Source: an uncultured Holophagaceae bacterium
Lineage (GTDB): Bacteria; Acidobacteriota; Holophagae; Holophagales; Holophagaceae
Assembly (NCBI GenBank): GCA_903927605.1
Contig: CAIYNT010000050.1
Coordinates: 1 to 6,871, forward strand
Length of the DNA: 6,871 nucleotides
Reading direction: 5' to 3'
This document shows positions 1,362 to 3,000 of this stretch, piece by piece (position 1 is the first letter of the stretch; every line of letters starts with the position of its first letter). The position numbers were made by a program, and so were the translations under genes. The notes beneath the pieces are model-generated. The model was given only the letters and a program-made list of their open reading frames with translations. It was not told the DNA's origin and searched no databases.

Positions 1362-1607
1362 ATGCGCTCAACCTACCAGGCAGATGCTCCCAAGCGGCCG
1401 GTCAATCTGACCCTCAACAGCGATCTACTGAAACTTGGGAAGGAACTGGGCCTCAATCTGTCCAGCGTGGCCGAGGAAGCGCTGGCGTATGCAGTTAGTG
1501 CGCGATTGGCTGAACGGTGGCTGGAGGAGAATGGGAAGGCGATCGAGTCCTACAACACCCGGATCGAGTCGCAGGGGGTGTTCTCCGATGGAATCAGGGC
1601 CTTCTGA
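1362..1607 (+). CDS. ccdA: CcdA-family antitoxin
   Basis: An 81-residue protein. Residues 12-40 (RPVNLTLNSDLL, then KELGLNLSSVAEEAL) form the ribbon-helix-helix DNA-binding domain typical of CcdA. Residues 48-81 carry the toxin-binding tail, with family residues ERWLEEN, AIESYN, IE..G.F.DG.R.F. In this family the dimeric N-domain binds the operon's promoter, and the flexible C-terminal arm wraps the gyrase poison CcdB until proteases such as Lon remove it. F-plasmid CcdA is 72 residues, so this is near full length. The start is chosen from the promoter and GGAG described at 1306-1355. Its TGA overlaps the ATG of ccdB by one base (TGATG), implying translational coupling. The layout antitoxin-then-toxin is canonical. 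Confidence 0.9.
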   Translation: MRSTYQADAPKRPVNLTLNSDLLKLGKELGLNLSSVAEEALAYAVSARLAERWLEENGKAIESYNTRIESQGVFSDGIRAF

Positions 1608-1924
1608 TGGCCGCCTACTCCGTGTTTCGGAACCCGAACCCGAAGACGAAGACCGCGGTTCCCTTCCTCTTGGATGTGCAGTCGGACCTGCTCTCCGTGC
1701 TTGGCACGAGGGTGGTCGTGCCTCTGTACCGACCCAATGCGACTGGGGTACAGGCCCTGTCCCGGTTGACTCCCGTCGTGCGCTTCCAGGGCCATTCCCT
1801 GGTGGCGATGGTTCCAGAGTTGGCGGGCATTCCCCAACGCGAACTGGGCCCGGCTTCGGGTAGTCTCACCGAGGCGAGGAGTGAAATTCTCCAGGCGATC
1901 GATCTGCTGTTGACCGGTTTCTAG
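1607..1924 (+). CDS. ccdB: CcdB-family gyrase toxin
   Basis: A 105-residue protein beginning at ATG 1607, which shares its A with the ccdA stop codon; the reading frame is open further upstream, but that part lies inside ccdA. Family landmarks are FLLDVQSDLL (20-29), TRVVVPL (34-40), LTPVVRF (54-60), and the C-terminal helix SEILQAIDLLLTGF (92-105). CcdB binds the GyrA subunit and traps DNA gyrase on cut DNA. In F-plasmid CcdB the last three residues WGI are needed for poisoning. Here they are TGF, closer to chromosomal homologues such as that of Vibrio fischeri, which as I recall ends TGI, so activity is plausible but unproven. The stop codon TAG (1922-1924) is formed together with the left end of the repeat element that follows. 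Confidence 0.9.
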   Translation: MAAYSVFRNPNPKTKTAVPFLLDVQSDLLSVLGTRVVVPLYRPNATGVQALSRLTPVVRFQGHSLVAMVPELAGIPQRELGPASGSLTEARSEILQAIDLLLTGF

Positions 1925-1975
1925 TGTGGTGTCCCGCGAGAACCTGGATCATCCGAAGTGCTGGGACACCACACT
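1923..1975. repeat. 13-bp perfect inverted repeat
   Basis: AGTGTGGTGTCCC (1923-1935) is repeated exactly in inverted orientation at 1963-1975, around a 27-base loop centred on GGATCATCC (1946-1954). The left copy is the left end of the MITE-like element and overlaps the ccdB stop. The right copy is a third, internal copy of the terminal sequence. No T-run follows, so this is not a classical intrinsic terminator, although the stem could still protect or end the ccdAB message. Confidence 0.75.
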
Positions 1976-1985
1976 TGGCAGGGGT

Positions 1986-2083
1986 TTGGGGGCATGGCAG
2001 TGCCCCCAAGGGGTGACAGATCTGGCGCGCCTGCGCGCCGGATCGCCAGAGGGGCCATGCCCCGATGGAAGTGGGCTGGCCCA
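1986..2083. repeat. cluster of four perfect hairpins
   Basis: Consecutive inverted repeats: TTGGGGGCA/TGCCCCCAA (1986-1994 with 2001-2009, 6-base loop); TCTGGCG/CGCCAGA (2021-2027 with 2044-2050), which encloses and competes with GGCGCGC/GCGCGCC (2024-2030 with 2033-2039); GGGGC/GCCCC (2051-2055 with 2059-2063, loop CAT); TGGGC/GCCCA (2072-2076 with 2079-2083, loop TG). Together they fill the interior of the element at 1922-2122. Such palindrome density is far above that of the flanking DNA. Confidence 0.75.
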
Positions 2084-2122
2084 TCCACCCCTTGATTCAT
2101 GTATTTCAGGGCCAGCACACTA

Positions 2123-2220: not shown

Positions 2221-3000
2221 ATGGGGACCAAGGGCGGATTGCTGGAGGGCAAGCGGGGCCTGATCATCGGTGTCGCCAACAAGCGGTCCATCGCCTGGGG
2301 CATCGCCCAGAGGGTGGCGGAAGCCGGGGCCCAGCTCTGCCTGACCTACCAGAACGAGCGCCTGGGGGAGAACGTGCATGAACTGGCGGCGGAGTTGAAG
2401 AACCCCCTGCTGCTGCCCATGGACGTGGGCAGCGACAGCCAGATCGTCATGGCCTTTGATGAGATCCGCAAGCAGTGGGGGAAGCTCGACTTCGTGGTGC
2501 ATGCGGTGGCCTACGCACCCCGTCCGGCGCTGGAAGGTCGGTTCGTGGAGACCAGCCGCGAGGACTTCCGCGTGGCCCACGACATCAGCGCCTATTCGCT
2601 GGCGGCCGTCAGCCACGCCGCCCAGTCCCTCATGCCTGAGGGTGGCTCCATTGTGACCCTCAGCTACTTGGGGTCCGAGCGTGTGGTGCCGGGCTACAAC
2701 GTGATGGGCGTGGCCAAGGCCAGCCTGGAAGCCAGTGTGCGCTACCTGGCCGCAGACCTGGGGCCCCAGGGCATCCGCGTGAATGCCATCTCCGCAGGGC
2801 CCATCAAGACCTTGGCCGCCTCAGCCATTCCCGGCATCGGGTCCAAGCTCAAGCACCACCGGGCCCACACACCCCTGCAGAAGGACACCGATCAGTTGGA
2901 AGTGGGGGATGCGGGCGTCTTCCTGCTCAGCGACATGGGCCGCGGCGTCACCGGCCAAGTCCTGTACGTGGATGGTGGTTTCAGCATCATGGCGGGTTGA
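2221..3000 (+). CDS. fabI: enoyl-[acyl-carrier-protein] reductase (NADH), FabI
   Basis: A 259-residue cytoplasmic short-chain dehydrogenase/reductase, the usual length of FabI. It catalyses the last step of each fatty acid elongation cycle, reducing trans-2-enoyl-ACP with NADH. The nucleotide-binding turn is GVANKRSIAWGIA (17-29). The divergent-SDR catalytic pair of FabI, Tyr-x6-Lys, is Y159 and K166 within PGYNVMGVAKASLEA, with the second tyrosine at Y149 in LSYLG. SAGPIKTLAA (191-200) is the substrate-binding loop, and the protein ends with the typical YVDGGFSIMAG. The residue equivalent to E. coli G93, a triclosan contact, is A97. Transcribed alone, it converges with bcp. As an essential lipid-synthesis enzyme it argues for a chromosomal setting. 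Confidence 0.97.
   Translation: MGTKGGLLEGKRGLIIGVANKRSIAWGIAQRVAEAGAQLCLTYQNERLGENVHELAAELKNPLLLPMDVGSDSQIVMAFDEIRKQWGKLDFVVHAVAYAPRPALEGRFVETSREDFRVAHDISAYSLAAVSHAAQSLMPEGGSIVTLSYLGSERVVPGYNVMGVAKASLEASVRYLAADLGPQGIRVNAISAGPIKTLAASAIPGIGSKLKHHRAHTPLQKDTDQLEVGDAGVFLLSDMGRGVTGQVLYVDGGFSIMAG

Follow-up and report, generated by a model that had tools for sequence, protein, structure and literature searches.

The stretch of DNA analysed here, the window (6,871 nucleotides of an uncultured Holophagaceae bacterium), contains a ccdB toxin gene whose stop codon overlaps the beginning of a hairpin-rich sequence of 201 bp bounded by TA, which raises the question of what this sequence is and how it came to lie in the stop codon of a toxin gene. 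An earlier note, made from the window alone, had read it as a MITE-like insertion, and this reading is supported by the many copies, the insert-free relatives and the IS630 ends described below. The element is very probably a miniature transposon (MITE) that is non-autonomous and belongs to an IS630-linked family, as judged from sequence comparisons, namely from its multiple copies with fixed ends and unrelated flanks, its TA duplication and CTAG target, the insert-free relatives and the homologous ends of IS630 transposons. The features of the locus are as follows.

1362..1607, + strand: ccdA antitoxin gene, upstream of ccdB (PF07362 CcdA, E 9.6e-25, 87.2 bits)
1607..1924, + strand: ccdB toxin gene, 105 aa (PF01845 CcdB, E 1.8e-28, 99.1 bits, cut-off 28.6)
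1922..2122, + strand: the element, TA + 197 bp + TA (201 bp); 61 copies from a profile search have identical boundaries and unrelated flanks
1922..1923, no strand: left copy of the duplicated 2-bp target TA, with C before it (outer-left C in 52/55 copies with TA on both sides)
1923..1975, + strand: left end hairpin; arms 1923-1935/1963-1975 100% complementary; 10 pairs, 96.7% of cells paired (52 copies)
1986..2009, + strand: internal hairpin 1 (TTGGGGGCA..TGCCCCCAA); an extra module lies here in the long copies L299, L310, L320 and L326
2019..2044, + strand: internal hairpin 2, with the strongest covariation of all stems; both-side changes in 9/11 pairs
2046..2068, + strand: internal hairpin 3 (CCA..GGGGC..GCCCC..TGG); sequence nearly invariant, 98.8% of cells paired, 0 pairs changed on both sides
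2070..2121, + strand: right end hairpin; arms 2070-2082/2109-2121 92% complementary; both-side changes in 7/10 pairs
2121..2122, no strand: right copy of the duplicated 2-bp target TA, with G after it (outer-right G in 47/55 copies with TA on both sides)
2221..3000, + strand: fabI-like enoyl-ACP reductase gene (PF13561, 302 bits), downstream, the synteny anchor

The tandem CcdA and CcdB domains (PF07362, PF01845) identify a CcdAB toxin-antitoxin module, and the gene order in the window is ccdA, ccdB, the element, the fabI-like gene, a peroxiredoxin gene on the opposite strand and a solute-binding-protein gene. As the earlier note described, the outer TA at 1922-1923 lies within the ccdB TAG; this stop codon (1922-1924) consists of the target TA and the first base of the element, G. 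The 12/14 match between the two 14-nt ends, with TA on both sides, was also found as described, and it is the sole TA-to-TA pair with at least 12/14 matches among the 239 in the window, whereas 300 Markov-shuffled windows yielded 9 pairs among 67,087 tested (~0.03 per window). The extended inverted repeat comprises 31 nt at 71%. Mechanical open frames run across the element, and the + strand frame within it (65 aa, 1926-2123) gave no match in Pfam; together with the five hairpins this agrees with the description of a 201-bp stretch rich in hairpins and without a gene. The element folds much more stably than 200 shuffled versions of it (RNA z -5.4, DNA z -6.0). When positions 1800-2300 of the window were searched against Rfam 15, nothing scored above the gathering score, the only match being RF02828 with 22.5 bits (88 needed), and six more copies of the element gave none at E<=0.05. 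Shortness (201 bp) and the lack of a transposase gene are characteristic of a MITE.

Copies were sought in a sample of 77 genomes of the family to which genome G211 belongs, which was reached by way of a protein-level search of 396 genomes from the phylum. The element was matched in 38 of the 77 (E<=0.01), with no match at this threshold in the other 39; as at most 10 candidates were scored per genome, the copy counts from this search are lower bounds. The nearest copies were those of G412 (95%), G418 (90%) and G403 (88%). A 22-letter core pattern, with up to 2 mismatches allowed, had sites in 29/77 genomes (15 in G196, the maximum, 13 in G258 and 11 in G395); the reversed pattern, used as a control, had sites in 0/77. 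The class-wide search (E<=0.001) gave matches in 34/93 genomes, all among the 77, and in 0/16 others. Similarity among 12 copies aligned with 40-nt flanks runs from TA to TA, with none beyond, and 61 of the 101 matches of a profile search, the window's included, are complete at both ends. The prediction of multiple TA-bounded copies ending at the bases equivalent to 1922 and 2122 thus held (38/77 genomes, 61 full-length copies), and multiple copies with fixed ends and unrelated flanks are expected of a MITE. The family comprises length classes of 55, ~201 and 238-295 bp that differ by whole hairpin modules, and the left end hairpin unit also stands alone as TA-flanked elements of ~55 bp. These solo end hairpins (L313 1501-1556, L316 1501-1555, L318 1501-1556, L327 1501-1554) are the smallest units of the family, and 2 of the 4 overlap gene stops. 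Tandem copies with one common TA between them were seen in L163 (1481-1780) and L166 (1490-1767). Plasmid sequences searched with the element DNA gave no match; viral contigs gave none with three end patterns, and a 15-letter end found four viral loci whose surroundings were without the element.

Regarding the target, the base before the element is C in 55 of the 61 full-length copies, the base after it is G in 51, and both apply in 47. Where the outer base is not that of CTAG, the inner G is kept in 7/8 copies and the inner C in 3/3; the outer departures are therefore not mirrored inside, which shows that the duplication is of the 2-bp TA and not of 4 bp. As read from these copies, the target is CTAG with a 2-bp TA duplication. 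CTAG occurs 546 times in the 1.6 Mb of G211 that were compared (43% of that chromosome), vs 1,835 expected from its parts. Both flanks were found together in G211 for 19 of the 61 copies, 15 of them alignable across the junction, and a single TA is clear at nine of these empty sites, reading CTAG (L209, L106, L199, L211), TTAG (L095, L098), CTAC (L107), CTAT (L105) or CTAA (L185). The remaining six are ambiguous (L205, L195) or without a single TA (L100, L118, L186, L213). The empty site of L209 in G211 is a CTAG in which two convergent genes both have their stop. A duplicated TA with a single TA at the empty sites is likewise a MITE characteristic.

At the locus itself, fabI adjoins ccdB in 14 of 26 ccdB relatives, and the gap between the two genes is 88-105 nt in 11 of the 14. 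The gap in the window measures 296 nt, which becomes 97 nt when 199 nt (element plus one TA) are subtracted, and a profile search for the element gave 0 matches in the ccdB-fabI loci of the relatives. The earlier note had also predicted empty sites and had given the sequence expected at ccdB: the general part of this was confirmed by the insert-free ccdB-fabI relatives and by the single TA at 9/15 sites in G211, but the exact ccdB site was seen in 0/26 relatives. The ccdB stop codons of the 26 relatives read are 20 TGA, 4 TAA and 2 TAG; because relatives mostly end in TGA, a change to TAG must have preceded or accompanied the insertion. The closest CcdB relatives have 105 aa and full coverage, and the named protein relatives are mostly from Geothrix, with one from Mesoterricola, so that the host of the window is probably related to Geothrix. 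The three remaining ccdB-fabI gaps (L125, 1,339 nt; L127, 692 nt; L129, 285 nt) hold other DNA, which indicates that the locus acquires inserts repeatedly. A FabI search of genome contigs gave no close relative (best 64% among the matches listed), and 80 loci among the matches listed in this search contained no copy of the element (blastn). CcdB relatives in plasmid sequences were all <60% identical, and a CcdB search of viral contigs gave no relative.

Matches to DDE_3 (PF13358) were found in 22/77 genomes, and 31 loci were read for ends. The IS630-family transposase with element-like ends that had been anticipated was found in two transposons, L335 and L347, each with one end reading TAGTGTAGTGTCCC, a comparable inverted end at a distance of 1.17 kb and flanks CTA..TAG or nearly so; TAGTGTAGTGTCCC is identical to the element end TAGTGTGGTGTCCC in 13/14 letters. 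Their transposases (377 and 375 aa, respectively) and that of L341 match the NCBIfam IS630 model NF033545 with 261-268 bits (cut-off 100). The window ends agree with the left ends of L335 and L347 at 21-22 of 30 positions, a value equalled by 0-1 of 32,205 TA sites of G211; the right end of L347, which is one base off register (8-11/30), was left out of this comparison. The other end type of the family (TAGTGGTGCCCGCGCGAAATA..) agrees with L341 at up to 22/30 positions, and L157 and L153 have ends that resemble it. Terminal repeats homologous to those of an IS630 transposon from its own lineage are expected of a MITE mobilised by such a transposon. Genomes that contain both the element and such an IS are G418 (L157), G413 (L153), G352 (L347) and G424 (L337). 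No DDE_3 match was found in eight element-rich genomes (G403, G412, G422, G395, G414, G410, G258, G345), all fragmented assemblies; multi-copy elements are often missing from assemblies of this kind, but the gap still counts against the proposed partnership. Only part of the 31 DDE_3 loci have matching ends, those of L151, L331, L345, L348 and others being quite different. In summary, the IS630-family transposons of these genomes (L335, L347, L341/L349, L153) resemble the element in their CTAG flanks and in terminal inverted repeats (TAGTGTAGTGTCCC.. or TAGTGTAGGCCGCCAGAAATACC..) similar to its two end types, but they are coding and 1.17 or 1.87 kb long, and their ends are ~70% alike over 30 nt, not identical. 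Since IS630-family transposons found in the same bacterial family have ends and CTAG flanks in common with the element, an IS630-family transposase probably mobilises it in trans. Such an enzyme would excise the element between its TAs, and the excised element would be pasted into the TA of a CTAG, a sequence that is rare in these genomes and often coincides with the stop of a gene, or with a pair of convergent stops on one palindrome. With its G start and C end the element would recreate CTAG on both sides and the stop codon would be kept; insertions at stops would then be tolerated, while coding-interior insertions are absent from the sample.

The placement of the copies relative to genes was determined with a purpose-written codon-usage gene caller, on which the stop statistics rest. 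The 45 CTAG-target copies at distinct sites comprise 20 at single stops, 9 at double (convergent) stops, 16 in intergenic positions and 0 in coding interiors; the window copy is counted as intergenic because the caller missed ccdB. The corresponding figures for the 546 CTAG sites of G211 are 171 single stops, 16 double stops, 281 intergenic and 78 coding interior. Stops thus account for 29/45 copies vs 187/546 sites (Fisher p 8.6e-5), and when only stops and intergenic sites, i.e. tolerated sites, are considered, the odds ratio is 2.7 (p 0.0023). Double and single stops stand at 9 to 20 in the copies and 16 to 171 in G211 (p 0.0019). A second background, 98 CTAG sites in the hosts' own flanks (22 single stops, 0 double, 45 intergenic, 31 coding interior), gave p 1.9e-6 for stops against the rest, an odds ratio of 3.7 (p 0.0018) for stops against intergenic sites and p 0.0065 for double against single stops. 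Of nine further copies outside the set, 5 lie at stops (double in 2 cases), and an earlier version of the gene caller had placed 37/61 copies and 33/187 background CTAG sites at stops. Regarding all distinct sites, 24/60 lie between convergent genes. The orientation of the element at single-stop genes is even (14 sense, 12 antisense). Gene stops are also overlapped by 2 of the 5 IS copies tested.

That the stop at the boundary arises by mere truncation through the insert was considered and rejected; the in-frame TAG of a CTAG-target copy predates the insertion, because the base following the target TA was already G. Nine of nine stop-flagged copies alignable with G211 have the native stop in the same place or a few codons off (by eye). 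The earlier note was right that the insert rebuilds TAG, and this is general for the family (29/45 copies at stops): as the element starts with G and ends with C, CTAG is restored on both sides and the stop survives on either strand. Many copies are therefore harmless in gene stops, and the observed pattern implies that CTAG targeting and the loss of harmful insertions account for most of the stop excess. The residual excess, chiefly at double stops, may be due to an effect of the caller, to stronger selection against upstream insertions or to a benefit. The seat in stop codons characterises the family as a whole rather than the toxin gene; in ccdB, one instance of the rule, the insertion leaves the protein unchanged, and nothing was found that supports site specificity for this gene. 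A hairpin that ends a toxin gene is thus not necessarily that gene's regulatory part. The family also provides a testable rule for transposons in dense bacterial genomes, according to which the target is a rare palindrome that often serves as a stop, and the outer letters carried by the element restore this stop on both strands.

The same statistics could be read as signs of a selected genetic part, with gene-end copies being kept because their hairpins end or stabilise transcripts and form a bidirectional 3' structure between convergent genes. For the copy at ccdB, the earlier note had proposed that it could give the toxin mRNA a stem at its 3' end. Copies at stops do exceed the tolerated CTAG sites (odds ratios 2.7 and 3.7), double stops are in excess over single ones (p 0.0019), 24/60 sites are between convergent genes and the hairpins covary. 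A T-run, however, follows none of the hairpins, and the only nearby terminator-like match lies outside the element at 2175-2190 and is at chance level (1 found, 0.6 expected); moreover, orientation at single stops is unbiased (14 sense / 12 antisense), 39/77 genomes are without a match, and the pneumococcal BOX, RUP, SPRITE and IS elements are likewise enriched between convergent genes, which the authors of that study read as signs of parasites (PMC3049150). A selected part is therefore clearly unlikely.

The remaining alternatives concern the mode of transposition or deny it. An IS5-kind MITE with a 4-bp CTAG duplication, like MITEPsy1 of Pseudomonas syringae, which duplicates CTAG or YTAA (PMC3189936), would agree with the CTAG on both sides of most copies, but where the target is not CTAG, the copies retain the inner G (7/8) and the inner C (3/3), which is unexpected under a 4-bp duplication, the empty sites L185 (CTAA) and L105 (CTAT) fit TA only, and the matching transposase is of the IS630 kind; a CTAG/YTAA duplication was accordingly rejected, and the chance that the family is of the IS5 kind is very small. 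The solo hairpins of ~55 bp and the two-hairpin composites resemble REP singlets and BIMEs, that is, REP-like palindromes moved by a single-strand transposase (IS200/IS605 or RAYT). Here, however, there are two TAs vs one at the empty sites, and the ends match DDE-type IS630 transposons; the empty sites and the inner and outer bases disagree with the absence of a target duplication that such systems imply, so that a REP-like origin is hardly credible. A native intergenic structure or terminator of the ccdB-fabI locus that happens to resemble an insert would fit the terminator-like position and the strong fold, but the sequence is absent from the locus of the relatives and present elsewhere with identical ends, and these copies refute it; its probability is practically nil. 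A miniature transposon with IS630-type ends thus remains the preferred reading.

These elements form a new family within a kind already known. The nearest described pair is RUP (107 bp) and IS630-Spn1 of Streptococcus pneumoniae (PMC2229807, PMC3049150). RUP is, like the element, short and non-coding, with IS630-type terminal inverted repeats, TA targets, stable stem-loops and an excess between convergent genes; the present family differs in its lengths (55, ~201, 238-295 bp), its sequence, its CTAG target and its regular location in stop codons. IS630 of Shigella sonnei and ISY100 (IS630/Tc1/mariner) share the duplication of TA upon insertion (PMC2170065), and the IS630 transposon prefers the TA in 5'-CTAG-3' (Tenzen and Ohtsubo 1991, title as cited in PMC2170065), but both are autonomous, whereas the element has no transposase gene. 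Correia/NEMIS and ERIC are also small palindromic repeats bounded by TA, and in Correia an internal segment gives rise to length classes (PMC2229807); they occur in other bacteria with other sequences, and an effect on mRNA stability is reported for ERIC. The BOX repeats of S. pneumoniae are likewise modular hairpin repeats and set a precedent for locations at the ends of genes; they supply the 3' stop codon in 36/58 overlapping CDSs without clear truncation (PMC3049150); BOX thus supplies the stop itself, whereas here the old stop is rebuilt from the target TA and the first base of the element. The accessible part of a 2024 review of prokaryotic MITEs (PMC10969869) did not contain the terms 'stop codon', 'CTAG', 'IS630' or 'Acidobacteri', and no description of the family was found in the literature searched, which excluded most subscription papers.

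An alignment of 52 copies gave five main hairpins and a short inner stem, with compensatory changes in 28/52 pairs, the consensus structure having been derived from the very alignment that was scored for covariation. The proportion of paired cells was 96.4%, vs 84.2% in shuffles and 35-50% when slid. A weaker measure of covariation yielded 66 further pair types against a shuffled mean of 61.5, and 14/500 shuffles were as high. Changes from Watson-Crick pairs on one tree (parsimony) numbered 55 to G-U and 25 to A-C; since changes of the same types in unpaired columns stand at 138 to 114, the G-U excess is modest (p 0.028), and it hints at selection on + strand RNA. The end hairpins are probably a substrate of the transposase, and the internal hairpins are conserved, possibly at the RNA level. 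Compensatory pairs, G-U excess, length classes in whole hairpins and the lack of an Rfam family are also the basis of a wider reading, which we regard as rather unlikely, namely that the element is a mobile structured-RNA gene whose five-hairpin core and optional stem modules are under + strand RNA selection, the stop seat offering a ready-made 3' untranslated region or a position between convergent genes with the proteins untouched. Were the conserved core a working RNA, the element would amount to a mobile 3' untranslated region.

Some features of the IS630-family elements are recorded here in addition. The 1.87-kb kind, seen in L341 (915-2784; G434) and L153 (about 649-2519; G413), carries a GxxExxY / PDDEXK_3 nuclease-fold passenger beside the transposase, and 7 of the 8 DDE_3 matches of G434 are near-equal and of this kind. 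G383 (L344) contains nine DDE_3 copies of equal score, with different ends, which represent another IS630-like lineage. In L335 (946-2079) the transposase gene obtains the last letter of its TAG from the G after the target TA, so that this gene depends on the CTAG target for its stop.
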